Assembly: GCF_000520975.1 (NCBI RefSeq)
Contig: NZ_JACB01000010.1
Span: 62,001 to 126,000 of the forward strand
DNA length: 64,000 nt
Source of the DNA: Aquimarina megaterium XH134
Lineage (GTDB): Bacteria > Bacteroidota > Bacteroidia > Flavobacteriales > Flavobacteriaceae
Direction: 5' to 3'
The stretch's first letter is position 1. Every line of letters begins with the position of its first letter. The translations under genes were made by a program, and so were the position numbers. Shown one piece after another: positions 15,976-33,464 of this stretch. The notes under the pieces were generated by a model, which made no database searches, was not told the DNA's origin, and saw only the letters and a list, made by a program, of their open reading frames with translations.

Positions 15976-16113
15976 TTGTTCTTTTGGTTTCCTTAAAAGA
16001 TTAAAAAAATTGATTCTTGTTACAGTTTCGTTTTTTAGTTTGCCAATAATAACGTTATATATATTAGTACATATATACCCGATGGCGAATTTGCAATTTG
16101 TGTTTTTACAACT

Positions 16114-16248
16114 TCAAAATAAATTTAAAACAACAATTTCTAATTCATGATCTAAATCTGCATAATTTCTAGCAGAACTAAAAATATAACCCTCTGAATT
16201 TAAAACAATCTTATCTATAACCAAGTTATTGTGAATGTATTTTAACAA
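16114..16248 (-). pseudogene. C-terminal fragment of a REP-associated tyrosine (Y1/IS200-like) transposase
   Basis: An uninterrupted 44-codon stretch ends in TGA and reads YIHNNLVIDKIVL followed by YIFSSARNYADLDHELEIV. This matches the conserved end of RAYT/Y1 transposases (YIHxNPV...YSSARNY...LEI). There is no start or catalytic HUH/Tyr portion, so it is a remnant. Copies with more damage lie at 21291 and, internally deleted, at about 32520. Confidence 0.75.
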
Positions 16249-16276
16249 AAAAACAATCACATATAAGTGACTGTTT
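16245..16276 (-). terminator. Intrinsic terminator within the REP/RAYT remnant
   Basis: On the minus strand the sequence forms a stem ACAGTCACTTATATGTGATTGT followed by seven Ts (one mismatch). The same hairpin recurs at 21425, 23140 and 32583. It should end transcription from the C45 gene, isolating each unit. Confidence 0.7.
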
Positions 16277-16393
16277 TGATATGTTTTATGGATTGCAAAT
16301 CTTTGCCATCGGGGTTTTTACATTGACCTTTGCTTTAAGTTTATACTTTTTATCACTTAAACTGCGATTGCTTATACAGATTGTTGTGTAGGG

Positions 16394-17398
16394 TTATTTA
16401 TTTTTCTTTTTTAACCACCAATCAAGTCTCGTTTCTTGTTTATAATTTGTTAGTCTTGGTTTTGTTTCGGCTCTTTCAATTTTTAACTCGTTCAAATTTG
16501 CAACAACTGACCAAATAGTTCCAAATTTCTCCTTTTTTAAATTCAAACAGACACATTCACTAGATAAGATTTCTTTAGCTTTATTTAAATCTAAACTTCC
16601 TACAGACGAGAGGTTTTCTTTTATTCTGTTATAGCGTTCCGAACTTTTACTCCACTCTACATCACCTTTATCGTAAGGTTTCATTTCTTTTGATATGAAC
16701 TGATTGGTTATGGATATGAAATTTTCGTTTTTTTTTGGTCTTCGGATGAAACTCTTTTGTGGAGCGGATTCAACTACTGCTATATCAAAATTTTTATCAG
16801 CAATTAGGAAATTGTTTGCGGAGGCAACGGTTGTTTGTTGAATTAGATTTATGGCTTGTTCGGTAGTACTACAATTTTCAAGTACTTTCCTAATTATAAA
16901 ATGAAATCCAATTCCAGGTTGAACCTTTGTTCCATTTACAAACGACATTGCTATTGATAGCCCTTTTTCATTAATTCCATCTGAACGTCCAATAAAAACA
17001 TCAGATTGACTTATATATGAAAACTTATCTTTTGGTGCTATCAAACTACTTTCGGTAAATTTTTTAAACTCAAAAAGCATATCATAGTTTCTACCAACAA
17101 TTACAGAGTCATTATTTTTAAAAGCGAATACACTACATTGTCCGCTTGTTTCGAAAATACCAAGACTTAACAGGAAAGCTCCAAGGTTTTTAGGTTTGTC
17201 ATTAATTCCTTTTGCAAAACCTTTTATTTCATCTATGACTTCAGGATAAAAATTTTGTAATTCTTTATATGAATCAAGTCCAAATTCTTTCTTTTTAGAA
17301 CTTATTTCGGGAAGTACAAAATTTGCCTTTTCTTTAAGTAGTGCTCCATACTTAAGTCCCATTTCGTAAAATTCTCCATATAGTCTTGGATGATACAT
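16394..17398 (-). CDS. C45-family (acyl-CoA:6-APA acyltransferase / choloylglycine hydrolase-like) Ntn hydrolase
   Basis: The 334-residue protein has the family's layout: an N-terminal propeptide (PRLYGEFYEMGLKYG) and an internal nucleophile Cys88 (ETSGQCSVF) expected to become the N-terminus after self-cleavage, followed by the conserved GRNYDM at 102-107 and NQF later. These enzymes break or form linear amide bonds, including penicillin side chains, N-acyl amino acids and bile salts; the substrate here is unknown. It has no signal peptide. It follows the VGIGT-repeat gene by 18 bp in the same direction and is probably co-transcribed with it. Confidence 0.82.
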   Translation of the reverse strand: MYHPRLYGEFYEMGLKYGALLKEKANFVLPEISSKKKEFGLDSYKELQNFYPEVIDEIKGFAKGINDKPKNLGAFLLSLGIFETSGQCSVFAFKNNDSVIVGRNYDMLFEFKKFTESSLIAPKDKFSYISQSDVFIGRSDGINEKGLSIAMSFVNGTKVQPGIGFHFIIRKVLENCSTTEQAINLIQQTTVASANNFLIADKNFDIAVVESAPQKSFIRRPKKNENFISITNQFISKEMKPYDKGDVEWSKSSERYNRIKENLSSVGSLDLNKAKEILSSECVCLNLKKEKFGTIWSVVANLNELKIERAETKPRLTNYKQETRLDWWLKKKNK

Positions 17399-17416
17399 TC
17401 GTGTTATAAGCTTTTT

Positions 17417-18541
17417 TTACTTTTCAGATTCTAGCTTTTCAAGTCTTAATTGTAATTCAATAAGCTTTTTATTAATCGAGTTCAACTCTTCGTTTTTTCT
17501 TTCAAGATTTTTAATTTTTTTATCTTGCCGAATAGTATAAAGAGTCAATTCCTCAATTTTTTTAAGAAGATTCATATCCATTTCTGCTAGCATCACTCCG
17601 TTTTGTTCAAACTCTTTTGCAGATGGTATTTCTGGAAGGTGACTATTCTTTTTAATAAACCTTTCTACTTCTTCTATACTTCTTAAGTTATAATCTTTTT
17701 TAAAAACATAATCAGGAGCAGGAACATTCAGATCAATTTTCACTTCTTCTGCATGAATATTTCCTTTTACAGTTAATTTCATATCTGGATTCATCGTGCC
17801 TATACCTACATATCCATTCGATTCAATTGTCATTCTTTCGACCAGGCTTGAAGATTGTCCGATACCATTATTTGCTAATGATGTATAAAATTTGATTTCA
17901 CCATTACCTCCGCTGATTGAAGATGCTTTTACTGATGAATGGGTATTTATAAAACCGTTTCTATCAGCATTTGCTTGCGAAAACCAATTTATAAATCCAT
18001 ATCCTGACTTATTTCCAAAATTAAACCACTCTTGTTTATCTAGAGATAAAGTATTATTATATCCACTCGCAACAGATCCAACTACTTGTAGTTTCATACT
18101 AGGGTTTGATGTTCCAATTCCAACATTTCCATTACCTAATATTGTAAACTTTCTGCTCGAAGATCCACCATGAGTTCTAGTATCAATTCCTAAAGCATAT
18201 TCATAATTACCAGCAATCTGATAGTTAGGGCGGAAACCGTAGATTTTAACCCCAGATGTGTAAGTCCCGGATGAATTATATTTACTCCCAAATGATATTG
18301 TTCCTGTGATTCCATTAGAATTATATATTTGATCACTATACAAGCTTAGATTAAAATTTGTACCTGTGAAAAAAGCATTCGTTATACCTGTTGTTGATCC
18401 ATGATTTCTATTCCCGATTTCAAGTTTAGCATTAGGTGTCGTTGTTCCAATTCCTACGTTACCCGTTGTAGGAAATGTGTTTTGAGCTTTAATTCCAAAG
18501 CTTATTCCAATAAGTCCAATCAATAAGATTGTTTTTTTCAT
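17417..18541 (-). CDS. Secreted VGIGT-repeat / tail-fibre-like protein with C-terminal coiled coil
   Basis: A signal peptide (about 1-19) is followed by repeats of the form NVGIGTTTPNAKLEI (three clear copies near residues 28, 139 and 246), with beta-rich stretches between them. The last ~100 residues carry the typical Bacteroidota end: FKKDYNLRSIEEVERFIKK, SHLPEIPSAKEFEQNGV, MDMNLLKKIEELTLYTI and a coiled coil. Such proteins are common and surface- or phage-tail-like; their function is unknown. There is no T9SS tail. At 374 residues it is a compact member of the group. Confidence 0.8.
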   Translation of the reverse strand: MKKTILLIGLIGISFGIKAQNTFPTTGNVGIGTTTPNAKLEIGNRNHGSTTGITNAFFTGTNFNLSLYSDQIYNSNGITGTISFGSKYNSSGTYTSGVKIYGFRPNYQIAGNYEYALGIDTRTHGGSSSRKFTILGNGNVGIGTSNPSMKLQVVGSVASGYNNTLSLDKQEWFNFGNKSGYGFINWFSQANADRNGFINTHSSVKASSISGGNGEIKFYTSLANNGIGQSSSLVERMTIESNGYVGIGTMNPDMKLTVKGNIHAEEVKIDLNVPAPDYVFKKDYNLRSIEEVERFIKKNSHLPEIPSAKEFEQNGVMLAEMDMNLLKKIEELTLYTIRQDKKIKNLERKNEELNSINKKLIELQLRLEKLESEK

Positions 18542-18709
18542 AATTATTTTTGTTTCTCAGTTTACTATGTATGTCCTAGTAGTTGTATATGTTACTTAAA
18601 TATTTTTTAAGATTCTGATTAACGTTAATTTTTTCTGTTTTAAAATTACCACAAAAATTGGCTCGTTAGTTCAAAAAATTAATAGAGTTTCTTTGTGTGA
18701 GAGAATTGC

Positions 18710-18939
18710 TTATAACAATGTTATATGCGAAATAGTATACATATACCCGTTTGTACCTATTTATGAGCGTTTGTAAATATTTGTTTTATCATAATGCTGT
18801 ACATAAAGATGCTGCCATATATGTATAATAAAAATGTATGCGTCATGATATACCTCTGGTTTGTGATGAATAGTTATAAAAAAGTGATGATTTTAATGGG
18901 GTAGAACTCGATGACGCAGATTTGTAATCCTCGCCATCG
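18710..18939 (-). repeat. Cassette-linker end motif plus REP palindrome
   Basis: TTATAACAATGTTATATGCG (18710-18729) and the AGTATACATATACCC/TTTGTAAATATTTG stretch match the linker ends at 16042, 30454, 32411 and 33352. A full REP palindrome lies at 18909-18939 (CGATGACGCAGATT, 3-nt centre, AATCCTCGCCATCG). No transposase fragment remains. The rest of the 18542-18972 spacer is AT-rich leader in which I see nothing else. Confidence 0.55.
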
Positions 18940-18972
18940 GAAGTGATGTATTATAAACCGAGAATATCTGAT

Positions 18973-20019
18973 TTATTGTTTTGAGTTGATAAATTTGATA
19001 GCCACAATAATATTCTTATCTTTTGTTAAATCTTCAAAATTGTGTTGTTTTATAACCTCTATATCAGGAATAATAGTCTTAGTAAATTTAGCAGATCTAT
19101 CTGTCCCATAACTTTCAGTAATTGCAGCCTTTGTATCATATGGTAATTCATATAAGTCATTTGCAGTCGTACTCCCATAACTTTCTTCTCCAATCACAAT
19201 AGTATTTTTACGACCTCTAAAACCCAAAACTACAAATTCTCCTGCGCTGTTTGTCATAATTCCTGATATTAGAGCAACAGGAACCTGTGATATTGGTTTT
19301 AAGTTTGGTTTTACAGCTGTATTTATTTTATGATTTTTATATAAAGTACCATTATAAATGCTGGTAAGAATTTTTACATTTTTATCAATATCCAGAGACA
19401 AGTGAGTGGTACCATTTCCTAATAAATGATACAATCCAGCAAGCATTACATTAGAATTACCACCAATATTTAAACGAAGATCAATTATCCAGCCTTTAAT
19501 GTTGTGTGATTGATCTATTTTTGTAATGGCATCATAAATTTCTTGCGCCGCTTTATCCAATTCTTCTCTCGTGGCATCTTTTAACAGCATTCCTGGTATA
19601 AATACATAACCATATTCCTTCTCAATAACTTTTGCTTCAAAGGATTTTCCATTTTCATAGGCATCTGCAAGACTTTGATTAAATTGTTCTTGAGATAATT
19701 GTTTGCCAAGTGTACTTTTATACCAATCTTTTTCCGAAAAAAGAAGTAAATGATTTCCTTTAATGGTATCAAATAGTTTTACTGTAATTTTTAAAGACTC
19801 TTCAAAGGATTTACTTTTTAAAGCCTTCTCTTTTATATAAGGTTTCAGACCTAACCAATCTATATCTTTAGTATGTAAATAGTTCTCTTCTAGTTCTACA
19901 AATAGTTTATTATAAAATGTATTAATACTGTCTTTAACTGTTAGATATTCGTTTTGACTATAAGTGTTTAATGAGAAAAGTAAAAGACACATAGTAATAC
20001 CTGCAAAGATTGATTTCAT
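18973..20019 (-). CDS. S41 family (C-terminal processing / IRBP-like) serine peptidase, secreted
   Basis: A signal peptide (about 1-21, ending NTYSQ) precedes a helical N-terminal domain and an S41 core with the nucleophile in GIMTNSAGEF and the downstream VIGEESYGSTTAND; the Lys of the classical Ser-Lys dyad is not at its usual place, as in the IRBP/tricorn type that uses His/Glu. There is no PDZ domain. Its 348 residues fit the short flavobacterial members. It lies 102 bp behind an AraC regulator, with a palindrome between them, so regulator and peptidase probably travel and act as a unit. Confidence 0.85.
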   Translation of the reverse strand: MKSIFAGITMCLLLFSLNTYSQNEYLTVKDSINTFYNKLFVELEENYLHTKDIDWLGLKPYIKEKALKSKSFEESLKITVKLFDTIKGNHLLLFSEKDWYKSTLGKQLSQEQFNQSLADAYENGKSFEAKVIEKEYGYVFIPGMLLKDATREELDKAAQEIYDAITKIDQSHNIKGWIIDLRLNIGGNSNVMLAGLYHLLGNGTTHLSLDIDKNVKILTSIYNGTLYKNHKINTAVKPNLKPISQVPVALISGIMTNSAGEFVVLGFRGRKNTIVIGEESYGSTTANDLYELPYDTKAAITESYGTDRSAKFTKTIIPDIEVIKQHNFEDLTKDKNIIVAIKFINSKQ

Positions 20020-20094
20020 AATGTTATTTTTTTGTTTTTATGAAAACAAAACTAAAGGCAATCATAATGTTTTTTAAGAAAAATGGCCAAAAGG

Positions 20095-20120
20095 ATGTCC
20101 AGAAAAAAGATACTGGACAT
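20095..20120. promoter_or_regulatory. Perfect 8-bp palindrome between AraC regulator and S41 peptidase
   Basis: ATGTCCAG (20095-20102) and CTGGACAT (20113-20120) are separated by 10 nt and begin 2 bp after the regulator's stop codon. In the transcribed direction a T-rich loop but no clean T run follows, so an operator for the regulator or a weak terminator/processing hairpin are both possible. Confidence 0.45.
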
Positions 20121-20121
20121 A

Positions 20122-21228
20122 TTAGTTTTTAAGACTTGCTTTGTATTGGGAAGGAGTTAAGCCAGTAAATTTCTTAAAAACAGCATTAAATGAAGATTTC
20201 GAACTAAAACCAGCATTTTCGGCTATGGCTAATAGTGTGTACTTTTTTTGATCTTCGGTTTTTAAAAGCGTCTTAACTTTTTCAATTCTAAACCTATTGA
20301 TATACTCTGAGAACGACATTTCAAATGATTCGTAAATGAATACCGATAATTCTTTTTCATTTATTTCAATTAGATAGGCTAAGTCTGACAGTTTTAAATT
20401 TTTATTTTTAAAAACCTCTTCCACTTTCATATAGTGTTCAAGTTTTTGGGCTAATATACTAGGTGTTTTATCTTCAATCGAATTTTGCTTTTTAAGTGTA
20501 AACGTATTGAATAAATAGTTTGATTTTGTAAGCGACTCGAATCCTACCCAATAGATGTATATTGAATTTAAAATTAAAATAATTGAATAGATTATTCCAT
20601 TATATAGATCGCCTACAATATGCACAATTACTGCTAATACTATGTTTAAAATTATGACAACTATAAATACATAAGAAAATTTTAAGAGCCATTCCCAGTT
20701 TTTTTGAGAAACCTTAGTTCCTCTTATTTGGGTTTTGTATCTCGTTAAAAATTTTATTGCCAGGCTTACTAAAAGAAGATTAAAAATTAAATAGACGTAT
20801 TCGTTATATGTAAAGAATCCCATTTTATATACATTCCAAAAGATATCTTTATCTAAACCTGTATGAAGTTTTATATACCAATAAATTCGTAATATACCAT
20901 AAAAAAAAGCTGGTAAAAATAGGAGGTATTCATATTTTGAAATGATTTTTTCTTCTTTGGATATTTGACTTCTTATAAAAAAATAAAAGCCAACTGCAAT
21001 AAGATACTTATATGGAAAAGGGAAAGAAGTTAAAGGAATAAATCCCAGGGTTGAAATCTTCATATACATTAGTGCATATATGAAATTAAAAAAGGATAAT
21101 GAGAATAAAAAAAGAATAAAATTATTGAATGCCTTTTTATTATCTTTTTTTTTGAAATATAAATACATACAAAGTAAAAAACCTTGTATGGCTCCAAAAA
21201 GAACAATTATAGCAATTATATTTAGCAT
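20122..21228 (-). CDS. AraC-family transcriptional regulator with multi-helix membrane N-terminus
   Basis: About seven hydrophobic segments span residues ~1-230 (starting LNIIAIIVLFGAIQGFLLCM) and an AraC double helix-turn-helix domain spans ~260-368 (LKLSDLAYLIEINEKELSVFI; AIAENAGFSSKSSFNAVFKK; GLTPSQYK). Length and layout equal the regulators at 4944 and 26706. It is the promoter-proximal gene of a two-gene unit with the S41 peptidase. The spacer upstream (21229-21500) is almost entirely a REP/RAYT remnant. Confidence 0.9.
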   Translation of the reverse strand: MLNIIAIIVLFGAIQGFLLCMYLYFKKKDNKKAFNNFILFLFSLSFFNFIYALMYMKISTLGFIPLTSFPFPYKYLIAVGFYFFIRSQISKEEKIISKYEYLLFLPAFFYGILRIYWYIKLHTGLDKDIFWNVYKMGFFTYNEYVYLIFNLLLVSLAIKFLTRYKTQIRGTKVSQKNWEWLLKFSYVFIVVIILNIVLAVIVHIVGDLYNGIIYSIILILNSIYIYWVGFESLTKSNYLFNTFTLKKQNSIEDKTPSILAQKLEHYMKVEEVFKNKNLKLSDLAYLIEINEKELSVFIYESFEMSFSEYINRFRIEKVKTLLKTEDQKKYTLLAIAENAGFSSKSSFNAVFKKFTGLTPSQYKASLKN

Positions 21229-21258
21229 TCAGCAGTGTTTTAAGATTATTAACCCTGT

Positions 21259-21499
21259 AACGCAGATTTGCAATCCGTGCTATTAAAACTTCAAAATAAA
21301 TTTAAAACAACAATTTCTAATTCATGATCTAAATCTGCATAATTTCTAGTAGAACTAAAAAAATATTCCTTCTGGATTTAAAACAATCGTACCTATAATT
21401 GGATTATTATAAATGTATTTTAACAAAAAAACAATCACATAATAAGTGACTGTTTTGATATTTTGATATGTTTCACGGATTATGAATCCGCATTATAGG
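21259..21499 (-). repeat. REP-bounded RAYT remnant element
   Basis: Inverted REP palindromes (AACGCAGATTTGCAATCCGTG from 21259 and CACGGATTATGAATCCGC from 21474) enclose a decayed RAYT tail (from 21291, the same sequence as at 16114 but with frame damage near TATTTTTTTAG) and a terminator (21425-21456). The right REP touches the stop codon of the gene ending at 21501, so it also serves as that gene's terminator region. Confidence 0.7.
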
Positions 21500-21500
21500 A

Positions 21501-22985
21501 CTACTCGGTATCATTAAGTAATTCATTGAGCTTTTTCTGAGAAAAATCCTGATCAGGGTTCATTTTCAGTGCTTTTTTGTACCATTGAATGGCCAGGTCA
21601 ATACTGTCCATTTCTCTGTATGCATCTGCAACACTGTCGAACCAACCAGAATCTTCTGGCTCGAGTTCGACATTAAATTTAAATAGGTCTAATGCTTTTT
21701 CGGGATAATTTCGATCTATTAACCAATAGCCTAATTCGTCTATATAGCCACCTCCGAATACATAGTTTTGATTAGGCTTTTGCTGCTCCCTAAGATAAAC
21801 CGCTTTGGTTTTGGCAATCCCATCTTTAAGAATATGATCTTTGAGTTTTAAGTGGATGGGTGCTTTTGGTATTATGGAATCGTTAAAAATTAAGTTTTTT
21901 AGTATAGTTCCTGAAGCATAATTTGACCAGAAATAATCGGCGTTGACCATCATAACAATAGCAGATTTTTTAGCTGGAATAAATGCAAAAAAGGTACTGT
22001 ATCCCGTATCTCCTCCCTGATGAAATACTATTTTATAATCGTTTATATTATTTAAAAACCAACTTAAGCCTACACTTTTAGTTTTATTAACTTTAGTTTG
22101 GGAGGTTGTGAGCAACTCATAGGAACTTTCTTTATAAATTCTTTTTTTATTGATGATTCCTTTATTCATATTGACTTCTGCCCATAACAACATATCTTCG
22201 ATATTAGAATGTAGTGTAGAACTTCCGGCATGTTTCCTGTTATAAGGGTAGATCTTACTTACGACTATGTTTAGGCTGTCACCAATAACGTGGGGTTTTG
22301 TAGCCAAATTTTTTGGTACATCAGGTTTAAAAAAAGTACTGTTTTCCATTCCCACAGGCTCAAAAATATTTGCTTTCATATAATTTTCGAAGGTCATTCC
22401 GGAGACTTTTGAAATGACATCGCATAAAATATCAAAAGCAGCATTGCTGTAACTGTATTGATCGCCAGGAGCAAAGTCGAGTTTGATGGATTGCTGACTT
22501 CTGGAATACCGTTCGGCAGCTCTGTCATCATACTGCGGATTGTCCCATTCATAATCATCAACATTAGGTATTCCAGAGGTATGATTAAGCATGTGCTTAA
22601 TAGTAATGTCTTTGTAGCGTTCATCAGCCATGACAAAATATGGCAGGTAATGTATTAGTTTTTCTTCTAAATCAATTTTTCCTTTCTCCATGAGCTGAAT
22701 AATAGCAGTTGCCACAAAAGGTTTTGATACAGAAGCCATGTGAAATAAAGATTTGGTGGTCAAGGAATCTCCTGTGTCTAATCCCTTAACTCCATGTGCA
22801 TTGGCATAAACAATGTTACCATTTTTAATTATTCCCACGGCGATACCGGGGACATCGAATACTTTTTTTTGTTTAAGAACCGTGTTTTCAATTTTTAAAG
22901 CTTCTGGTGATAAAGTCTTTTGAGGTTTATCCTTACAACCAAACATCGAAGTAAAACAAATACCAATGAGTACTATCTTTCTCAT
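21501..22985 (-). CDS. Beta-lactamase-fold serine hydrolase lipoprotein with C-terminal TPR
   Basis: A lipoprotein signal ends in MFGC (Cys17). The serine hydrolase fold has SVSK at 85-88, YSN in YSYSNAAFD and HQGG in VFHQGGDTGYS. Residues ~410-490 form about two TPR motifs (EKALDLFKFNVELEPEDSG; AIQWYKKALKMNPDQ), giving 494 residues in total. A protein-interaction tail on this fold is widespread in Bacteroidota. The substrate is unknown. Confidence 0.88.
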   Translation of the reverse strand: MRKIVLIGICFTSMFGCKDKPQKTLSPEALKIENTVLKQKKVFDVPGIAVGIIKNGNIVYANAHGVKGLDTGDSLTTKSLFHMASVSKPFVATAIIQLMEKGKIDLEEKLIHYLPYFVMADERYKDITIKHMLNHTSGIPNVDDYEWDNPQYDDRAAERYSRSQQSIKLDFAPGDQYSYSNAAFDILCDVISKVSGMTFENYMKANIFEPVGMENSTFFKPDVPKNLATKPHVIGDSLNIVVSKIYPYNRKHAGSSTLHSNIEDMLLWAEVNMNKGIINKKRIYKESSYELLTTSQTKVNKTKSVGLSWFLNNINDYKIVFHQGGDTGYSTFFAFIPAKKSAIVMMVNADYFWSNYASGTILKNLIFNDSIIPKAPIHLKLKDHILKDGIAKTKAVYLREQQKPNQNYVFGGGYIDELGYWLIDRNYPEKALDLFKFNVELEPEDSGWFDSVADAYREMDSIDLAIQWYKKALKMNPDQDFSQKKLNELLNDTE

Positions 22986-22994
22986 AACAATTAT

Positions 22995-23210
22995 GTTAGC
23001 AGTTAATGTATAGATAAAAGATTTAGATCTTTGTTACACCAATAGTGTCATTTTTTATAAAACTGTAATGTTGTCTACATTCTATAGAAACGAATTGGGC
23101 TTGATTATATAAGAAGTAGTTCATAATGTACTTTAACAAAAAAGCAGTCACAATAAGTGACTGCTTTTATATTTTGGTATGCTTGACGGGTTGTAAATCC
23201 GTGCTATTAA
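22995..23210 (-). repeat. Degenerate linker: REP palindrome and terminator
   Basis: A REP palindrome (GACGGGTTGTAAATCCGTG around 23185-23203) and a perfect 12-bp terminator hairpin (23140-23168, T run on the minus strand) match the REP/RAYT remnants, but no transposase sequence is left. GTTAGCAGTTAATGTATAG (22995-23013) weakly resembles the linker left arm. The terminator serves the SnoaL gene. Confidence 0.5.
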
Positions 23211-23260
23211 ATTTTTTTCATTTGTTTGTATTCTTCTTTAAGCTCTTTTTTTGTTTTCAT
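23207..23260 (-). pseudogene. 17-codon N-terminal remnant, probably of a GIY-YIG nuclease family gene
   Basis: Starting 2 bp after the SnoaL stop codon, ATG begins a 17-codon frame reading MKTKKELKEEYKQMKKI, whose stop codon merges into the REP palindrome. The words resemble the start of a common flavobacterial GIY-YIG nuclease family (from memory, not searched). The rest of the gene is absent, so this is a stub replaced by the REP element. Confidence 0.4.
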
Positions 23261-23261
23261 A

Positions 23262-23675
23262 TTACATAAATCCTAATTGTTTCATAACAGTTATTCTGTC
23301 AAAAACCTGAGTGTGTCCATTAATCAAATTGTTCTTAAAATGATAAATTGTTATGCCTTTTGTATTTATCGTTTTTTTGGTCGGTGGAAATTCTCCTATC
23401 ATTCCTAGGTTTGTTCCAGTTAATATCCAAGTTATAACAACGTGATTTTCTTCTGAAATTGCAGAAGTTATTTCAAAATTCATATCAGGAAATGAGTTGA
23501 ATGAAAAATTCAATCGCTCTTTGAATTCAGAATGAGACAATGTTTTTCCCTCCCAGGGGTCAGCTGTGTCAAGATGAATTGTATATTCTGGATGAACATA
23601 TTGCTCAACTTTGTCAAATTTTTTTTTATTCCAAATTTCAGTCATAAATTCCCGCAGGAAAGATTCTTTGTTCAT
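23262..23675 (-). CDS. SnoaL-like / ester cyclase family protein
   Basis: The 137-residue protein has an NTF2-like SnoaL fold: N-terminal helix with EFMTEIWNKKKFDKVEQYVHPEYTIH, then GKTLSHSEFKERL, FSFNSFPDMNFEI and the strand VVITWILTGTNLG. Members include polyketide cyclases and small hydrolases or binding proteins; no activity can be assigned. It is cytoplasmic. Linker repeats sit on both sides, making it a typical single-gene unit. Confidence 0.82.
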   Translation of the reverse strand: MNKESFLREFMTEIWNKKKFDKVEQYVHPEYTIHLDTADPWEGKTLSHSEFKERLNFSFNSFPDMNFEITSAISEENHVVITWILTGTNLGMIGEFPPTKKTINTKGITIYHFKNNLINGHTQVFDRITVMKQLGFM

Positions 23676-23687
23676 CGTCTTTTTTGA

Positions 23688-23828: not shown

Positions 23829-23834
23829 TAGTAT

Positions 23835-25040: not shown

Positions 25041-25126
25041 TGGTCTTGTTGTTTTTCTATATAGACGTAAATAAGGTGCAAATGGTTGTCTTTGTTAAGA
25101 ATATTGTTCGTTAGCCTAACATTACT

Positions 25127-25257: not shown

Positions 25258-26643
25258 TTATTTTTTAAATACGATTGGGAAACCTTTGTTAGAAATCATT
25301 TCAAACTTATTCCTTGCTTGTTTTTTAAAAGTTATAGTTTCATTATTTCTCTCAATGAAAAAAGTATTCCCGTTAATTGGCATTAATGGCAATAATCCAA
25401 ATCTTTTGCTTTCCAAGTATAGTTTACCTTCTTTTTCTACTATAATTTTAACCTCTTTAGAAAGGGATGAGTGGTATGTCCCAGCATATTCTCTTAAGAG
25501 TGTTTTGTTTGGATAATCCTTATTAAAATATTCGGAATTGAGTAACATTGACGCGATTCTGATTGGTGCGCTATATGATAGTCCGATATCATATTTACAA
25601 TACCCACAATTTCTTAAATGCGCAATAAAAAGTTTTGATTTTGGAAAATACAATACTATTGAACCGTAACCCCAACCTAAACCATCGTGTAGTATAAAAT
25701 TATGTCCATTTATGTTTCCTGTAAATACGCCATATCCATTTCCAGCATAGGTGCCGTCATTGTATTTAACAGGTGTAATAAGTTTTTCTACATTATGTTT
25801 ACTTATTATCTTGTAATTCATTAGAGTTTCATACCAAATTGATAAATCTTTAACTGTCGACATAAGTCCACCTGCCGAGTAAAAATAAGAATCATCACTG
25901 TCTATTTTTCTAATTTGATAATCATTTTCGTTAAACGAATCGTATCCAATTGCTCTATTTTTTATGACTTTGGTAGAGCTTTCTAAAAAGGTATTGTTCA
26001 TTTTTAGCGGAGTAAAGAAAACCTCTTTTAGATATGTTTCATAGGTTTTATCACTAACTAGTTCAATAATGTATCCCAGCAATTGATAGGCTACATTGTT
26101 ATAATCAAATTTATTTCCTGGGCCTGCGTCAAACTTTTCTTTTGTGAAATATTCAAGAATAAAATTAGAGTCATTTTCATTTCTATTTTTAATTGCTCTT
26201 TTAAAGTCATTACGTTGCTTTTCATCGTTCTTGTATTCCATACCCGAACTATGAGATAACAAATGCCCTATAGTAATATCCTTTCCTTCTTTTGGAAAGT
26301 TGGGCACAAATTTCGAGACTTTATCATGTAAAGAAATTTCTCCTTTTTCTATTAATGTAAAGATTGCTACTGCAGTGAATGGTTTAGTAACAGATGCAAT
26401 GTTCAAGACATTATTTAATTGCATATCTACACCTAATTCAAGGTTGCTCTTTCCTAGTGCCGCCGAAGCGATATGTTTTCCATTTTGTGTTACAAGAAAA
26501 GTTCCTCCTGGTTCATCAGCAGGAAAAAATGACAAAATCTCGGCAATTTTTTTACCACTTATTTTAATTTTTGGGTTTTGAGAACTGCAGGGTAGTGAAA
26601 AAAGGCATAGCGTGATTAGTATAATTAATTTGTAAGGTTTCAT
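25258..26643 (-). CDS. Beta-lactamase-fold serine hydrolase, secreted
   Basis: A signal peptide or lipoprotein signal (SLPCSSQ, Cys19) precedes the serine hydrolase core: SVTK at 84-87, the second motif reads YNN in FDYNNVAYQ instead of YSN, and the third box is HDGLGWGYGS. A ~90-residue beta-rich C-terminal domain follows (LLREYAGTYHSSL onwards), the usual DUF3471-like lipocalin tail. It lies 62 bp behind the AraC regulator at 26706 and probably forms a unit with it. Confidence 0.87.
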   Translation of the reverse strand: MKPYKLIILITLCLFSLPCSSQNPKIKISGKKIAEILSFFPADEPGGTFLVTQNGKHIASAALGKSNLELGVDMQLNNVLNIASVTKPFTAVAIFTLIEKGEISLHDKVSKFVPNFPKEGKDITIGHLLSHSSGMEYKNDEKQRNDFKRAIKNRNENDSNFILEYFTKEKFDAGPGNKFDYNNVAYQLLGYIIELVSDKTYETYLKEVFFTPLKMNNTFLESSTKVIKNRAIGYDSFNENDYQIRKIDSDDSYFYSAGGLMSTVKDLSIWYETLMNYKIISKHNVEKLITPVKYNDGTYAGNGYGVFTGNINGHNFILHDGLGWGYGSIVLYFPKSKLFIAHLRNCGYCKYDIGLSYSAPIRIASMLLNSEYFNKDYPNKTLLREYAGTYHSSLSKEVKIIVEKEGKLYLESKRFGLLPLMPINGNTFFIERNNETITFKKQARNKFEMISNKGFPIVFKK

Positions 26644-26705
26644 AATTGTAGAAATATTTTTACCCCAAAAAACAACTATAAAACCGAGTTATACGACCGA
26701 ATAAT

Positions 26706-27848
26706 TTATTCGAACCCTTTTTTTTGAAACTTTTTTCTGTAAACAGTAGGTGTAATTCCTGTTGCTTTTTTAAAAGCGGTATTAAATGAAGATTTAGAGT
26801 TATATCCTACTTGGTATAAAATTTCGAGTATTGTAAGTTTTGATTGTGATGTGTCTTCTAATATTTTTTTTGCTTTATTTATTCTATACTTATTTATAAA
26901 TTCATAGAAGTTCAAATTCAATTGTGTATTTATTAAAATCGAAAGATCTCTTTCTTCCATTTGCATTTGATTGGCTAAACTCTTAATGGTTAAATCTGAA
27001 TCTAAATAAGGTTCTTTTTCTGACATAAACTCTTTAAGTTTTGTTTTTTGACTATTCCAGAGGTCTATTTCAGGATTAGTTTTTTCTATTTTTAATATAG
27101 ATGCCAATTGTAAGTTTGAAGAAATTCCTCTAAATAATTTAGGGGCATTTAATGCTTTAAAAATTAACCAACAAGTAAAGCCTAGCATTATTAAAGAAGT
27201 AGAGAATCTTAAAGTAGAGATAAAACCAAAATGATTTCCAAAACGATATATGTTTTTTACGAGTGCAAAAATGAATAAAAGCAAACAAATCATATTCATT
27301 TGAAACAACCATTTATAATTTGTGTTTATACTTTTAGAATAGTTTTCGAATACTAGTTTTTTGTATCTAGCAAGTAAAATAAAAGTAATTATGATGTAAA
27401 ATAAATTTTGAAGATGCGCTAAAGTATAGGATAATTTACCTTCTAATGTATGTGTATAATTATGATAGAATAGAAGCTGTTCACTTTCATTTGCCAAATA
27501 AAAATTTGGAAGTAATACTACTGTACTAACAATAAATGGAAGTAATAATATAAGATGTTTTGATGAGAGTTTAAAATCGGAATAGATTACTGATAATGTA
27601 AATAAGAAAAGTAATGGTGCTTGAAAAAATGCTCCAATATCCATTCTTAAAATATCAATAACTGGTGTTAATTTTAAAAAAACAAAAGTAGATGGAAATA
27701 TATCAACAGTTCTAACAATTAAAAAAATAGCTAGAAAAATATTGCCTATTTTATTCTTTGATTTTAGATAGAGTAAGAAGAATGTGAAAAATAGTGATGT
27801 AAAAATTAGTAGAATATTTGTGTAATGAAGGAGTAAATCAGTATTCAT
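26706..27848 (-). CDS. AraC-family transcriptional regulator with multi-helix membrane N-terminus
   Basis: Hydrophobic segments cover residues ~8-235 (starting YTNILLIFTSLFFTFFLLYL) and an AraC double helix-turn-helix domain covers ~275-380 (LTIKSLANQMQMEERDLSILI; ILYQVGYNSKSSFNTAFKKA; GITPTVYRKKF). It is the upstream gene of a regulator/hydrolase unit with the serine hydrolase at 25258. The same arrangement occurs with the S41 peptidase at 18973. Confidence 0.9.
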   Translation of the reverse strand: MNTDLLLHYTNILLIFTSLFFTFFLLYLKSKNKIGNIFLAIFLIVRTVDIFPSTFVFLKLTPVIDILRMDIGAFFQAPLLFLFTLSVIYSDFKLSSKHLILLLPFIVSTVVLLPNFYLANESEQLLFYHNYTHTLEGKLSYTLAHLQNLFYIIITFILLARYKKLVFENYSKSINTNYKWLFQMNMICLLLFIFALVKNIYRFGNHFGFISTLRFSTSLIMLGFTCWLIFKALNAPKLFRGISSNLQLASILKIEKTNPEIDLWNSQKTKLKEFMSEKEPYLDSDLTIKSLANQMQMEERDLSILINTQLNLNFYEFINKYRINKAKKILEDTSQSKLTILEILYQVGYNSKSSFNTAFKKATGITPTVYRKKFQKKGFE

Positions 27849-27880
27849 AAATTGGAAAAATGGATTATAAATTCATGCTC

Positions 27881-28076
27881 TGATAATGGTTTTCATAATT
27901 AATGCCAATGCCAAATATATGAATTAGAGCATGGCAAGTATACCTGAACCAATTGATCTATCTGCGTATTTTTATTTCTTATTCAATTTATAAAAATCTA
28001 GCACGATTGCAAAAAGGAAATGACCTTTCGATATAGCACAAAACATTGTTCTGATTTTATATATCTTATTGTGTAC
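27881..28076 (-). repeat. Cassette-linker repeat, degenerate (attC-like)
   Basis: TGATAATGGTTTTCATAATT (from 27881) matches the left-arm consensus CTAATGGTCTTGTGTATG, and TATATATCTTATTGTGTAC (to 28076) matches the right arm. The right arm contains the stop codon of the gene ending at 28066, as in the linker at 14521. The interior is not clearly related to the others. Confidence 0.4.
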
Positions 28077-28617
28077 GGTTTATTGATATTTCACGTATTA
28101 CTTTTCCTTTTTCGAATTCAAATTCAAGTCTCATTTTTTTGTCATTCAATGTACGTAATCTCCTTATAGATTTCACATCATCAATTCCAAAAAAATCATC
28201 GTTTATTTCAAAATCAAACTCAGTTTTACCAATTTCGCGTTCAAATATCCAATAATTCTTTAATACCGATATATAAGGTAATGCGATGACACTTTTTGAA
28301 GTTTCTCGAATATGAATTTCACTGTCAATTTTAATAGAGTCTTCGTCAACTAAAGCAAATCCTATTATGGTTAAAAAAGGAACCATCATAGGTAATAAGC
28401 TAATCCCAATGAGAGCGATTAGGATAAACCCATAAATTTTTGCCCATTTCTTTTTAATAAATTTAAAAACTATATAAAATGTACAAATAAACCATACCCA
28501 AAATATAATTCGATCTATTAAATTTCCAATAAATGAAATATCTAAAGTACAATAAAGAATTAAATCCAATAGCAATAAAATGCTAATCGCAATATATATT
28601 TTGATTTGATTATTCAT
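28066..28617 (-). CDS. Hypothetical membrane protein
   Basis: I do not recognise this 183-residue product. Hydrophobic segments lie at about residues 5-22, 29-50 and 57-82 from MNNQIKIYIAISILLLLDLI; the remaining ~100 residues are polar with a beta-like pattern (SEIHIRETSKSVIALPYIS). I chose the ATG at 28617 rather than the one at 28689, because the longer version would begin with 24 residues read from the linker repeat (28624-28824) and would lose the N-terminal hydrophobic start. Confidence 0.7.
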   Translation of the reverse strand: MNNQIKIYIAISILLLLDLILYCTLDISFIGNLIDRIIFWVWFICTFYIVFKFIKKKWAKIYGFILIALIGISLLPMMVPFLTIIGFALVDEDSIKIDSEIHIRETSKSVIALPYISVLKNYWIFEREIGKTEFDFEINDDFFGIDDVKSIRRLRTLNDKKMRLEFEFEKGKVIREISINRTQ

Positions 28618-28623
28618 TTTTTT

Positions 28624-28824
28624 GATGGTACACGACGTATAGCTATGCGTAGTGCTGAAGCAGAAAGTCACTGATTTTCGAACTTGCACTTAGCCAAAGT
28701 TTATGTTTTGTTTTTATCTGTTCTATTTTAAAAGCTAAATTTAAAATTTTGGTGGATTTTACAAATAAGTGCAAACCTTTCAGAAAGCCTTTGTTAGCTA
28801 TGTTTTATACACGTTGTTGTAGGT
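28624..28824 (-). repeat. Cassette-linker repeat, long subfamily (attC-like)
   Basis: The right arm TATACACGTTGTTGTAGGT (to 28824) starts 5 bp after the stop of the gene ending at 28830 and matches the right arms at 29553 and 30808. Inside, TTGCACTT pairs with AAGTGCAA and TTTTGTTTTTAT...TTTTAAAAGC is shared with 14521 and 25127. The left arm (from 28624) is poorly conserved. Confidence 0.55.
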
Positions 28825-28829
28825 GGTTT

Positions 28830-29423
28830 TTATTTCCAGATAATTGAAATAATTTTAGAGTTAGAGTTTTTAATATCATCTAAAGAATATTCTTCCTTAT
28901 CTGGACCCTCATAATTTCCTAATGACATTTCATATGCAATATTCGAACCTTCTTTGTGTAAATAAATATGATAATGTTCTGTTGAAATACTCATATTTGG
29001 ACGCTTTTTATTAATATCAATGTAAGTCATTCCTAACTTAATTCCATATTCATCAGATACTTTAGAGTTCTTATTTATCCATACTTGAGATAATGTCTCA
29101 CTTTCTGTATTTGGTGTCGTTAGTGTTGCTTCAGTTCCAATCTCGTAATAATAATAATTTGGTCCATCTTGTTCTCCAATATTTTTCGATACCGAAAAAT
29201 CAACAAATAACTCTTTTATTTTTGATTCTTCAAGAGGTATTCCTTTTTCTAATTTTAATTTTCCAAATGTATTTTCTGTTAAAATTAGCTTATTTACCTT
29301 TTGAATTGATTCTTCTTGCACCTTCACCTCTTTTGTAATAGAATCTTTTGATTTATTATCCGTCTTACAAGAAGAAATTATCATAAGAATTGATAATAAA
29401 AATATGGTTTTTACTGTTTTCAT
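28830..29423 (-). CDS. Hypothetical lipoprotein
   Basis: The 197-residue product has a lipoprotein signal (MKTVKTIFLLSILMIISSC, Cys19) and a Lys/Glu-rich linker. The mature part begins near NKLILTENTFGKLKLEKGIP, a pattern seen in DUF1131-like and related flavobacterial lipoproteins, but I cannot assign a family. It is a single-gene unit with linker repeats on both sides. Confidence 0.7.
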   Translation of the reverse strand: MKTVKTIFLLSILMIISSCKTDNKSKDSITKEVKVQEESIQKVNKLILTENTFGKLKLEKGIPLEESKIKELFVDFSVSKNIGEQDGPNYYYYEIGTEATLTTPNTESETLSQVWINKNSKVSDEYGIKLGMTYIDINKKRPNMSISTEHYHIYLHKEGSNIAYEMSLGNYEGPDKEEYSLDDIKNSNSKIISIIWK

Positions 29424-29440
29424 ATGTTTGTTCCTAAATT

Positions 29441-29578
29441 ACCTACAACGGACTTGTGTATGGTTAATGCGTTGGGACTAAAGATAGCAAAAGGGGGGCG
29501 AATCTGAGGGGAATTCGGAGAATTTTCCGATATTAGTACCTGCCAAACTCCGGCAATTAATTATACACGTTGTTGGCA
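29441..29578 (-). repeat. Cassette-linker repeat, short subfamily (attC-like)
   Basis: The left arm (29441-29463, ACCTACAACGGACTTGTGTA) and right arm (29553-29578, TTATACACGTTGTTGGCA) pair as CAACG/CGTTG and TGTAT/ATACA, with GACT left unpaired in the left arm. The right arm starts 6 bp after the PIG-L stop. The interior holds a second hairpin (GAATTCGGAGAATTTTCCGAT). Length 138 bp. Confidence 0.65.
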
Positions 29579-29584
29579 AATCGT

Positions 29585-30433
29585 TTATTCAACCACAGTG
29601 TAATACTCAGTACTAAAAGCGTTTGAATGTTTTTTTAATTCCCCTTTTTTTGCAATCATATAGAATTTATCTAAGATTTTAAATTGAGATTTGTGACAGA
29701 GAGCTACGTCATTTTTTGTTTTCCAATAATCAGTTATGTTAAGTGCAACATCTGGATTGGGTAATCCTTTGCTATTTGTTAATGTCTTTGAATAATCATA
29801 AGCAGGAATCTCACTTAACATGAAGTTTTCCAATTTATCAGGTAGGCTGAATTGATAAATTTTCTCAAGGGAAAACAAAGAATCTGTTTTCTTTTCATGA
29901 AATATTTCTTCAGTCAGTTGTGCAGATATACGATGCTCTGGATGGCCATATCCGCCTATCTCAGTATCATATGTGATCAATATTTGAGGTTTATACCTTT
30001 CTATCTTATTTAAAATTATTGATTTAATGCTATCTTTTTTGTCATACCAAAATGAAATATTATCACTCATGATATCATCCCATTTGTTAATTACTAAGCC
30101 AGCTATTTCTAATTTTTCTACACCCATTTTAGTTGCAGAACAATTTAATTCTTCAATCCTAGTTTCATTGATTTTGGTTTTAGAGTTGTGTCCAAGAGTT
30201 AACATATGTATTCTTGCTCCTTGTGATTTTAAATAAGAAGTAAGCCCAACACAAGTAATCTCGTCATCTGCATGAGGGAAAATAAGTAAAACACGTGTGT
30301 TTACATCAGCTTCAACTTCCAGTTTTTTAATAGAATTATCTTGAAAAGAAGCAATTTCTTCATAATCAACTCGATCATCATCGCAACTAACAAGAATTAG
30401 CGATATTAGCAAAAAGTAAAACTTGTAATTCAT
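29585..30433 (-). CDS. PIG-L family deacetylase lipoprotein
   Basis: A lipoprotein signal (SLILVSC, Cys17) is followed by a LmbE/PIG-L domain with the zinc-binding PHADDE at 53-58, a conserved R-x-x-E-L (TRIEELNCSATKMGV) and the GGYGHPEHR motif that supplies another ligand. These enzymes remove acetyl groups from N-acetylglucosamine-type sugars. Being lipid-anchored it should act on periplasmic or surface substrates. Its start codon lies 20 bp from a linker end, and a linker follows its stop by 6 bp, so it is a clean single-gene unit. Confidence 0.87.
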   Translation of the reverse strand: MNYKFYFLLISLILVSCDDDRVDYEEIASFQDNSIKKLEVEADVNTRVLLIFPHADDEITCVGLTSYLKSQGARIHMLTLGHNSKTKINETRIEELNCSATKMGVEKLEIAGLVINKWDDIMSDNISFWYDKKDSIKSIILNKIERYKPQILITYDTEIGGYGHPEHRISAQLTEEIFHEKKTDSLFSLEKIYQFSLPDKLENFMLSEIPAYDYSKTLTNSKGLPNPDVALNITDYWKTKNDVALCHKSQFKILDKFYMIAKKGELKKHSNAFSTEYYTVVE

Positions 30434-30453
30434 TATGCTTTTCTTAAATGTTT

Positions 30454-30590
30454 GCCAACAACATTATATATGCAGTGGTACATATATATCCGTTTGTAAA
30501 TATTTGTATGTATTATACAGTAAAGATATCACGAAATATCTAAAACAAAAATATTGCATAGAACTCGATGGAGCGGATTTGTAATCCGTG
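30454..30590 (-). repeat. Linker end motif plus REP palindrome
   Basis: GCCAACAACATTATATATGC (30454-30473) and the following ACATATATATCCGTTTGTAAATA match the linkers at 18710, 32411 and 33352. The other end is a REP palindrome (AACTCGATGGAGCGGATTT, 30563 onward, with GTAATCCGTG). It shares TAGAACTCGATG with the REP at 18909. Confidence 0.55.
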
Positions 30591-30593
30591 TTT

Positions 30594-30683
30594 CTAAAAC
30601 TCCAACGATCCGAATACTTCATCTCTTATTTTTGCGAATTTTTCTTCTTCGTTATGTTCTTCGGGTTTTAGGTTGAATCTCAT
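30594..30683 (-). CDS. 29-codon mini-ORF filling a cassette between two linker repeats
   Basis: Between the repeat ending at 30590 and the one starting at 30699 there is just enough room for one frame: ATG at 30683 to TAG at 30594, 29 codons beginning MRFNLKPEEHNEEEKF, charged and soluble. A purine-rich GAAACGAAAA precedes the ATG. I do not recognise the product. It may be a tiny gene or the leftover start of a longer one, as with the stub at 23207. Confidence 0.4.
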   Translation of the reverse strand: MRFNLKPEEHNEEEKFAKIRDEVFGSLEF

Positions 30684-30698
30684 TTTTCGTTTCTAATT

Positions 30699-30832
30699 GC
30701 AACTAATGGTCTTGTGTATGATTAGTTACAGAAAAGGATGTAAATCATTTTCCATCGTAGTGGAAAGGTAATTAATTAAGAATGAATTTTCGGCAAATAA
30801 TTCAGAAGCAATTAATTATACACGTTGTTGGC
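30699..30832 (-). repeat. Cassette-linker repeat, short subfamily (attC-like)
   Basis: The left arm (30699-30725, CTAATGGTCTTGTGTATG) and right arm (30808-30832, AATTATACACGTTGTTGGC) are imperfect inverted repeats with unpaired GTCTT in the left arm. The right arm is nearly identical to that at 29553. Length 134 bp. A 93-bp spacer to the upstream gene's stop (30926) holds a small hairpin (TCACTT / AAGTGA). Confidence 0.65.
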
Positions 30833-30925
30833 AATGGTTTTAAAAACACCTATTATCTTGCTTTTTGAAATTTCAATTTAATTTGAGTCACTTTTGTTTT
30901 CAGTAAGTGATATTAGTTACTAAAT

Positions 30926-32176
30926 CTATTTTTTATAGTCTCTAATATCGTCTGTAGCTGCTGTAAGAGTTTTCATGAGAATAGAATCGTATCTGAAAAG
31001 CAGATTCTTAAATTTCTTATTGTCTATTTTAATTTTCCCATTGTAAATGGCCTTTTTAAGAGGTCTTAAGTCTAAGAGGGTCCACATATTTTCTTTCTGA
31101 TGTTCAAATAATTTTTTATATTCTGGAACATACTTCAATCGGTCAATTTTTTCACCACTACTTCTAATATAGTATCTGCCGGCAAGAGCAAGATTGAAAC
31201 TTTTAGAATTATTTAATATTGCTAATTCATATAAGGTATTTCCAATGTCATAAATAGTTAATGGGTTTTTCCCATAAGTAGTATGCATACTACCCATTTT
31301 TAAAATCATTTTAGGATTTGACTCCTTTAATAAAGCTTTTTTGTAATAGTCGAAAAAGTAATGTTTCATCATAATTGCTCTGGAATTATTACTTTCAAAA
31401 TATTGCTTTGTCGGACCATTTCCATAAGCATATATTTTCCAGCTTTTTTCTAATTCTATCAATAGGGTAGTTATCTCTTTATCTATCCCTTTTGATTCAG
31501 AAATAAATTCACAAATATTCTTATCCTTTAAAAGAAGATTAAATTTAGATTTTGATTTCGTTGTAAGATGTTTTATTAGAGAAATTTGAGTTTTTTTATA
31601 GAGATTTTCATAGTCTTCAGAATTATTTTTTGATTTGTTAATCTTATTAAAGATATCATCAAATAAAAAGGAAGCTGCATAAACAAACTCTTGATCGATT
31701 CCCCAAATATTATAATCATTGGTTAAAGCAACTTCTAACATTCTAACTTCATCAATTCCATCAAAAAAGGGAATAGGATTAGTTAAACCATTTGAATTGT
31801 ATTTTTTGTAAAATTTTGACAAAGAATCAACACCATTTTTTTGTTCAATAATAGAGAGTAATTTTTTCTTACTAAAAGGACCAATTTCAACAGCAAAATT
31901 GTTGTACCCTTCAGGCTTTAATAATTTAAGAATTGCAGAAGTAAATTTTGGTGTTTCTTTATTTCCATGTAATTCACCAATCATGAAGAATTGAGAATTT
32001 TTAGCTTCATTTATAAGGAAGTCTTTACCACTTCCAACTAGTTCATTGTTTACAATTTTAAAAGTATACTTGTTTAACTGAATAATCGAGTCAATAGATG
32101 AGTTATTTTGCGCAAATGATATTTTTACGGTAAAACCGATAAGTAATAAGATTACAAAAAATAAAGATTTTCTCAT
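30926..32176 (-). CDS. Secreted EreA/ChaN-like (erythromycin esterase-type superfamily) protein
   Basis: A signal peptide (1-22, ending ISFAQ) precedes a 390-residue domain whose start FFMIGELHGNKETPKFTSAI carries the GExHG motif of the EreA/ChaN/TraB-Tiki superfamily, followed by YNNFAVEIGPFSKK and PIPFFDGIDE and, near the end, LKMGSMHTTYG. It is clearly a paralogue of the lipoprotein at 37987 (shared GE-HG, EVGP/EIGP, IPFFDG and NIWG[LI]DQE). Activity is unknown; the family includes metal-dependent hydrolases. It is the array member with the longest leader (235 bp). Confidence 0.7.
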   Translation of the reverse strand: MRKSLFFVILLLIGFTVKISFAQNNSSIDSIIQLNKYTFKIVNNELVGSGKDFLINEAKNSQFFMIGELHGNKETPKFTSAILKLLKPEGYNNFAVEIGPFSKKKLLSIIEQKNGVDSLSKFYKKYNSNGLTNPIPFFDGIDEVRMLEVALTNDYNIWGIDQEFVYAASFLFDDIFNKINKSKNNSEDYENLYKKTQISLIKHLTTKSKSKFNLLLKDKNICEFISESKGIDKEITTLLIELEKSWKIYAYGNGPTKQYFESNNSRAIMMKHYFFDYYKKALLKESNPKMILKMGSMHTTYGKNPLTIYDIGNTLYELAILNNSKSFNLALAGRYYIRSSGEKIDRLKYVPEYKKLFEHQKENMWTLLDLRPLKKAIYNGKIKIDNKKFKNLLFRYDSILMKTLTAATDDIRDYKK

Positions 32177-32410
32177 TTTTTATATTTAAAAGATTATTGT
32201 TGTTGTAAAGATCGATTAGCATTGTAAATGTTACAGTTTGCTTATTAGAAAAACTAAACAAGGAATTATTTTTTTGATAATTAATATAAACTTGTATGTG
32301 ATGAATTTACTTTTTGGGAAAAATTGGCATGAATAAGATCTAATTAAATTTCTCCTTCCACACTATGCAAGGGAGTGATTAATCTAAATCATCATACTCT
32401 TTAAGTATTT

Positions 32411-32657
32411 CCAACAACGTTATATATGCAATAGTACATATATACCTGTTTGTACTTATTTATAATCGTTTGTAAATATTTGTATGTATTATACAGTAAA
32501 GACATTACGAAATATCTAAAACTTCAAAATAAATTTAAAACAATCGTATCTATAATTGGATTATTGTGAATGTATTATAACAAAAAAACAGTCACATTAT
32601 AAGTGACTGTTTTGATATTTTAGTATGTTTCACGGATTACAAATCCGTGCTATCGGG
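32411..32657 (-). repeat. Linker end motif with internally deleted REP/RAYT remnant and terminator
   Basis: The left end CCAACAACGTTATATATGC (32411) and ATAGTACATATATACC lead into a RAYT tail fragment that has lost about 70 bp between two TTGTTTTAAAT repeats, a perfect terminator hairpin (32583-32614, T run on the minus strand) and a REP palindrome (CACGGATTACAAATCCGTG at 32631-32649). The remaining 32177-32410 is leader DNA for the gene at 30926 with no other feature I can support. Confidence 0.65.
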
Positions 32658-33335: not shown

Positions 33336-33351
33336 TGATTTTAATTGATGA

Positions 33352-33440: not shown

Positions 33441-33464
33441 ATAAAAATAGTATATATAACCATA

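Follow-up and report, generated by a model that had tools for sequence, protein, structure and literature searches.

Probable miniature derivatives of a REP-associated tyrosine transposase element in a variable gene hotspot of Aquimarina megaterium

The window analyzed here is a stretch of 64,000 nucleotides from the 6.2-Mb genome of Aquimarina megaterium XH134 (positions 62001-126000 of contig C10). One part of it differs in gene content from the corresponding part of related genomes. The linkers between its genes carry short elements, composed of repetitive extragenic palindromic (REP) sequences, a terminator-like hairpin, and codons from the C-terminal end of a REP-associated tyrosine transposase (RAYT). 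A first-pass annotation, made from the letters alone, had reported three linkers of this composition. All three are present (E1, E2 and E3 below), together with a partial fourth copy and two lone REPs that had not been reported. The features, in window coordinates, are as follows.

12191-33500, strand not assigned: variable gene hotspot enclosing the elements
16078-16314, minus strand: E1, consisting of REP, hairpin, 44-codon RAYT remnant and inverted REP
16287-16314, minus strand: E1 left REP
16251-16276, minus strand: E1 terminator-like hairpin with a T run directly after it (a 55-base piece folds at -14.1 kcal/mol, with no shuffle comparison)
16114-16248, minus strand: E1 RAYT C-terminal remnant, open through to its stop and equivalent to residues 142-184 of the parent
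16078-16103, plus strand: E1 right REP, inverted and degenerate
18910-18938, strand not assigned: lone palindromic REP
21256-21499, minus strand: E2, consisting of REP, hairpin, RAYT remnant (out of frame and interrupted) and inverted REP
21429-21455, minus strand: E2 terminator-like hairpin (-13.9 kcal/mol)
23114-23208, minus strand: E4, a partial copy with REP and hairpin (-20.4 kcal/mol), its RAYT remnant almost gone
30567-30590, plus strand: lone REP
32520-32657, minus strand: E3, a short form with REP, hairpin and ~16 codons, and one REP only
32586-32612, minus strand: E3 terminator-like hairpin (-16.2 kcal/mol)

The array genes are encoded on the minus strand. Read on that strand, a linker runs from the gene stop through a REP, the hairpin with its T run and the C-terminal remnant of the RAYT to an inverted REP. 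The first-pass annotation had counted 44 intact codons at 16114 and had seen inverted REPs around two copies. The frame ending there is indeed open, and the two copies bounded in this way are E1 and E2. The end of E2 adjoins the stop codon of the open reading frame at 21501-22985. When read from its sequence, E3 is missing its inner part between two GTTTTAAAT repeats, and its second REP is lost at a GTTTTA match with a separate repeat, termed D2. At the gene side of the lone REP at 18910-18938, a relative (G009) has a complete deleted element. A 19-base pattern that joins the A-tract to a hairpin arm has four matches at ≤3 mismatches, compared with 0.24 expected, and four were reached in 0 of 100 shuffles. 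With this excess, the elements are not attributable to chance. The short REP core gives a weaker signal (11 matches at ≤2 mismatches versus 3.6 expected, with 11 reached in 1 of 100 shuffles).

A translated search with the RAYT fragment produced matches in 23 of 66 genomes of the genus, some of which are long open frames. These frames have 185-209 codons in five relatives and 178 codons in a sixth (locus L022), which is apparently broken near its start. The five parents were aligned at 184 amino acids each. The window fragment aligns with parent residues 142-184 and is 84% identical to the end of the RAYT of genome G032. Two parents were scanned, and they match both NF047646 (REP_Tyr_transpos, the REP-associated tyrosine transposase profile; 99 bits versus a cut-off of 80) and Pfam Y1_Tnp (45 bits). 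The HUH-type motif of the parents occupies residues 59-62 and reads SHIH. In the clearest intact copies (L017, L020 and L021), the REP CCCGATRGCGCGGATTTGYAATCCGTG, or a near variant, stands at one end and its inverse at the other, and the leader contains a hairpin. Judged from these sequences, the parental layout is left REP, leader hairpin, 184-codon RAYT gene, and inverted right REP. With its match to a curated profile and its flanking inverted REPs, the predicted parent can be classed as a RAYT. The first-pass annotation had proposed a RAYT origin and had expected palindromes of the same type around intact RAYT genes in relatives, and both proposals are borne out by the intact parents, which have the same palindromes on both sides.

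The fragment itself did not behave as had been expected of it in a profile search. Its 48 residues alone matched no Pfam or NCBIfam profile up to E = 10, because NF047646 aligns only up to residue 164 of the two scanned parents and so can cover only ~23 residues of the fragment. The fragment starts at approximately parent residue 142, past the HUH-type motif, and by this reading is a remnant that lacks the motif and not a transposase.

Among the best 80 of 125 related loci found in 84,980 species genomes, a REP core lies ≤600 bp upstream or ≤250 bp downstream of the gene at 58 loci, and on both sides at 38. Control windows placed 2 kb away contain a core in 3 of 59 cases, 21 loci being too short to give such a window. 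When the strict asymmetric REP is scored at the same 80 loci, the upstream copy lies on the strand of the gene at 36 and on the opposite strand at 2, and the downstream copy lies on the opposite strand at 28 and on the same strand at 4. A full inverted pair is found at 18 of the 80. Outer stem pairs are mostly retained, at times via changes on both sides: at the first outer pair, A-T replaces G-C upstream of the gene in 15 of 76 cores and downstream in 4 of 78. By inspection, the outer REP bases read approximately CCCGATR. An unpaired GTAG at one end defines the GTAG-tagged REP superfamily (PMC3733652), and this tag was not seen at these ends.

Searches of the A. megaterium genome did not find an intact RAYT of the G032 type. 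The genome encodes two other Y1 transposases, one of which matches the fragment at 49%. The gene for another Y1 transposase (a 221-codon frame at ~1440-2250 of locus L002, C32:41713-45054) has a different palindrome, AGACCTCACAGGTCTCTAAGACCWGTGAGGTCT, on both sides.

Because intact parents exist with the same inverted REPs and leader hairpin, the window copies can be understood as internally deleted, non-autonomous derivatives similar to REPINs (REP doublets forming hairpins) or to miniature inverted-repeat transposable elements (MITEs). The earlier term "decayed tails" was thus correct as to RAYT ancestry, but these are rather internally deleted elements that retain the ends of their parent. 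Alignment with the G032 parent places the junction at an imperfect direct repeat, whose copies are AATAAATCATTAATAAT in the leader and AATAAAGTACATTCATAATAAT at codons ~141-148. As the alignment shows, a deletion from one to the other would leave a REP, the hairpin, the last ~44 codons, and a REP, for a total of ~240 bp. Six of the seven long copies in the hotspot have this junction region in common. E1, E2 and a copy elsewhere in the genome (C7:26040-26152) have two inverted REPs, ends of the parental type, and no transposase of their own. E3, E4 and the lone REPs are incomplete relative to the definition of a REPIN or RAYT-derived MITE.

Shorter forms are also found. One of ~150 bp, seen in the A. 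megaterium genome and in G009, G017, G023 and G063, is without the stretch between two GTTTTAAAT copies. Another, of ~113 bp, has only REP, hairpin and REP (the C7 copy), and lone REPs occur as well. In a tree of 38 sequences covering the remnant, built on a short alignment, the G032 RAYT clusters with 10 of the 11 elements (FastTree support 0.98). The copy from G061 falls outside this group, and a twelfth element (on contig C16) could not be placed. In the same tree, the RAYT ends of five genomes from the genus are at zero distance from loci on public contigs, three of which belong to named species (A. mytili, A. pacifica and A. aquimarini), in line with the assignment to Aquimarina.

A terminator-like hairpin is present in every element, as the first-pass annotation had suggested when it described a terminator as part of the package. 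Its position is not the one implied, since the hairpin does not lie downstream of the transposase end. In the parents, it is part of the 5' leader, where it follows the left REP and precedes the start codon; parents from G052 and G019 have a hairpin of different sequence at the same place. The predicted energies for the pieces from E1 to E4 range from -13.9 to -20.4 kcal/mol on the gene strand, where a T run follows each, and from -9.5 to -20.1 kcal/mol on the opposite strand, all without a shuffle control.

A DNA search for the elements and RAYT ends gave matches at E ≤ 0.001, several of them weak, in 18 of 57 genomes of the genus. Copies were merged by eye, and their counts are lower bounds because 13 candidate stretches were scored per genome. 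In the A. megaterium genome, 4 of 13 merged copies fall within one 21-kb stretch (12.2-33.5 kb of the window), for which P is ~1e-7 under random placement. The orthologous stretch holds 7 of 13 copies in G009 and 2 of 7 in G063. The right flank of this stretch is present in seven relatives, and the left flank gene is present in four (G009, G034, G032 and G017). The flanks are ~87-96% identical between genomes and the interior differs. "Variable gene hotspot" is a better fitting description than the "cassette array" proposed earlier. All 14 RAYT tails detected in the hotspot lie on the strand of the array genes. Because the hotspot genes share one strand, this orientation cannot separate cause from confounding. 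For two genes of G009 (L075, 4870-5442 and 10402-10878), the stop codon is a TAA in the loop of a REP, which is degenerate in one of the two cases, and is thus supplied by the element.

Two further observations concern the hotspot. A repeat termed D2/D3 (...TATGTACTATTGCATATATAACGTTGTTGG) is found on the minus strand at window positions 18712-18840, 30444-30560, 32389-32519 and 33340-33460, and its core is also found at 16042-16077. It resides just 5' of genes and, in the window, often close to a REP. We considered it as a part of the element and rejected it, as in G064, G009 and G063 a distance of 682 bp to 17 kb separates its copies from the nearest detected REP or tail, and no REP or tail is near it in G032. 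Also, four proteins of the beta-lactamase/serine hydrolase superfamily are encoded within one 13-kb stretch of the hotspot (13602-14504, 14686-15975, 21501-22985 and 25258-26643; Pfam Beta-lactamase or Beta-lactamase2).

Gene sides that carry an element coincide with changes of the neighboring gene in this first hotspot. When shared gene sides are counted once, the neighboring gene has changed at 8 of 8 sides with an element and at 6 of 19 sides without (p = 0.002). This count excludes flank genes, applies to sides whose longest linker is ≥60 bp, and scores an element if at least one genome has it; the sides are not independent units. Counts with the same non-independence are 12 of 12 versus 16 of 41 when all families and any linker are admitted, and 27 of 29 versus 51 of 168 by genome pair.

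A locus outside the window resolves one such change. Contig C41 of the A. megaterium genome carries a gene A (RDD-like, by eye), a linker, gene B, a second linker, and gene C, whereas G063:C2 carries A, one linker, and C. The two genomes are 92% identical on the A side and 98% identical on the C side, and both C41 linkers contain a RAYT tail and a REP. The single G063 linker agrees with C41 linker 1 at 3 of 4 differing inner sites on the left. It then agrees with C41 linker 2, starting at a 7-base gap that immediately precedes the RAYT tail. The simplest reading of this pattern is that gene B and exactly one linker were gained or lost, in either direction, through recombination located at the RAYT remnant or immediately ahead of it. 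We also considered gene A as a RAYT with swapped cargo, since a RAYT-like leader precedes A in both C41 and G063. The inspected G063 stretch is without a REP or hairpin, and for this reason cargo capture is not claimed. The C41 locus sits after an Rhs-type gene, as read from its sequence. Elements of the same family are likewise found near Rhs-type genes and the small genes that follow them in L077 (C41:1-14000, at 3200-6220), L078 (G065) and L082 (G023), where the Rhs-type calls derive from sequence reading and DNA similarity to C41.

We conclude, with a probability of about 0.82, that the linker elements are miniature, non-autonomous derivatives of one RAYT element that arose by internal deletion, and that they spread and recombined as follows. 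As long as the RAYT was still there, it would have spread the deleted elements in trans, via single-stranded DNA transposition by its HUH activity, as is proposed for REPINs. The elements would now be stranded, because an intact RAYT of their type was not found in the A. megaterium genome. The hairpin and T run may end transcription of the gene immediately upstream. Because dispersed copies share one orientation, they could act as short direct repeats, at which recombination would add, remove or swap whole genes. Two loci support this last step, whereas a third does not. In 1990, Shyamala is said to have described REP sequences as recombination hot spots.

Several observations weigh against this account. 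At a second hotspot (G009:C4:258-276 kb; C10:157.5-175.5 kb in the A. megaterium genome), gene sides have changed in 3 of 4 cases with an element and 25 of 38 without (p = 1.0), with an excess there only by genome pair (15 of 17 versus 70 of 126, p = 0.016). We therefore rejected the notion that the elements drive turnover as a general rule. Moreover, G034 and G032 differ in gene content at the first hotspot without any detected element there. Change points in the first hotspot are thus marked by the elements, yet change does not require them, and because of the result at the second hotspot and the variation of these two relatives, they are not the only cause of turnover. As for their origin, copy G009_b lacks the common junction, and the junction of a copy on contig C36 resolves slightly elsewhere. 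The short form is present in G017 at a gene side where G009, G063 and G064 have the long form, so the short form can arise in place and may do so repeatedly. No element was seen to move, and our searches yielded no clean pre-insertion site for a deleted element. A lone REP at C51, which shares an intergenic gap with the G032 RAYT, was considered as its excision scar and rejected: the flanks of the C51/G032 locus are too different to tell scar from target, and G034 has neither feature. Chimeric elements were likewise abandoned as proof of recombination, as the element halves are not distinguishable. Finally, the terminator role of the hairpins is a prediction from folding.

Some of these observations would also be expected if the copies were passive relics, that is, separate RAYT insertions at harmless sites, each reduced where it lay by decay at one shared fragile repeat, while turnover had another cause and the elements simply occupied tolerant gaps between unrelated genes. 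Deletions at direct repeats can fire repeatedly, as the short form probably does. Both the turnover of G034 and G032 without detected elements and the lack of an excess at gene sides in the second hotspot agree with such an origin. However, separate insertions would not readily place 10 of 11 elements in one RAYT lineage or give six of the seven long hotspot copies a common junction region, and C41 and G063 differ by gene B plus exactly one linker, with the switch at or just before the RAYT remnant. We consider passive relics possible but unlikely.

In a bolder extension of the preferred reading, which we regard as rather improbable, the RAYT-derived elements would have become functional borders in a gene cassette system that operates without an integrase. 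Each would provide a gene end, through the REP-loop stop codon and the terminator, and a short homology that lets arrays exchange a single gene together with one element.

A true integron-type cassette array, with the elements inserted into attC sites, is still more doubtful. A simple box search of the window linkers found three exact left and three exact right boxes that resemble attC arms:

28805-28819, 29561-29575 and 30816-30830, minus strand: attC-arm-like boxes CAACAACGTGTATAA
14527-14542, 29447-29462 and 30705-30720, minus strand: attC-arm-like boxes CATACACAAGNCCRTT

These boxes, in a few linkers, are what the earlier notion of a cassette array retains. However, no integron integrase scored above the cut-off in the A. 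megaterium genome, where five sub-threshold matches were obtained, and such matches occur in all 14 control genomes as well. In addition, the same region of seven relatives contains one box only (a right box in G034) at ≤2 substitutions.

Least probable is that REP-bounded gene modules were moved by RAYT in trans as composite single-strand transposons: a lone REP or an element, whole or partial, does lie at each end of modules such as a 348/368-aa pair and a 315/182/164-aa triple, and the outer neighbors of such modules vary between genomes, but modules shared by the A. megaterium genome and G009 are mostly colinear and about as similar as the flanks (83-95% versus 91-93% identity), so that vertical descent with local swaps suffices, and the searches of the A. 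megaterium genome found no intact RAYT of the G032 type.

If the elements are indeed deleted RAYT derivatives, then each stage can be set against the others, from the parent through a deleted copy with transposase codons and a shorter copy to the REP-hairpin-REP form and to lone REPs, in some cases at corresponding sites across species. The spread of REPINs is attributed to RAYT transposases, which are relatives of the IS200/IS605 family. To our knowledge, the stages between a transposase gene and a REPIN have seldom been shown. Because the elements coincide with gene-swap boundaries in one hotspot, the role of transposon relics in integrase-free gene turnover becomes testable. In the open-licence literature, we found no account of RAYT in Flavobacterium and, by title and the start of the abstract, none of such elements in Aquimarina; the portions consulted of two papers on RAYT in Bacteroidetes (PMC6006769 and PMC3733652) make no mention of flavobacteria. 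As far as this literature was searched, no paper was found on the combination described here, in which REPIN-like elements retain a leader hairpin and RAYT codons, their parent and their decay stages can be compared between species, and the copies cluster within a gene hotspot.

REPINs are established, as are their RAYTs (Bertels and Rainey 2011, PMC3116915), and the same work gives deletion between two REPs as one source of lone REPs. Like REPINs, the complete elements are short, non-autonomous and linked to a RAYT, and are bounded by two inverted REPs. Unlike REPINs, many of them still carry RAYT codons and the leader hairpin, and thus the steps from transposase gene to REPIN are visible. 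They are also few (~13 in the A. megaterium genome) and clustered. The parent resembles subclass 2.6 of the TnpA_REP proteins of Bacteroidetes (Quentin et al. 2018, PMC6006769) in its length, which is near 179 amino acids, in its WQ, YIH[QN]NP and SS motifs, and in its flanking secondary structures, copies of which also occur at other places in the genome. Its HUH motif reads SHIH instead of NH[LIV]H, an N-to-S change, although the other motifs agree, and the flanking structures of subclass 2.6 are described as atypical, from manual inspection, whereas those found here are regular inverted palindromes. The MITEs that flank a resistance gene and an integron (PMC3934969) likewise are miniature elements bounding exchanged genes. 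Those MITEs reside on a plasmid and not in a chromosomal hotspot, and the likeness is drawn without regard to transposase class. Lastly, REPs are described as recombination hot spots (PMC11708052), and in both cases dispersed REPs are sites of rearrangement. In the switch resolved here, however, the homology includes the RAYT remnant beside the REP, and the outcome is the gain or loss of a single gene.

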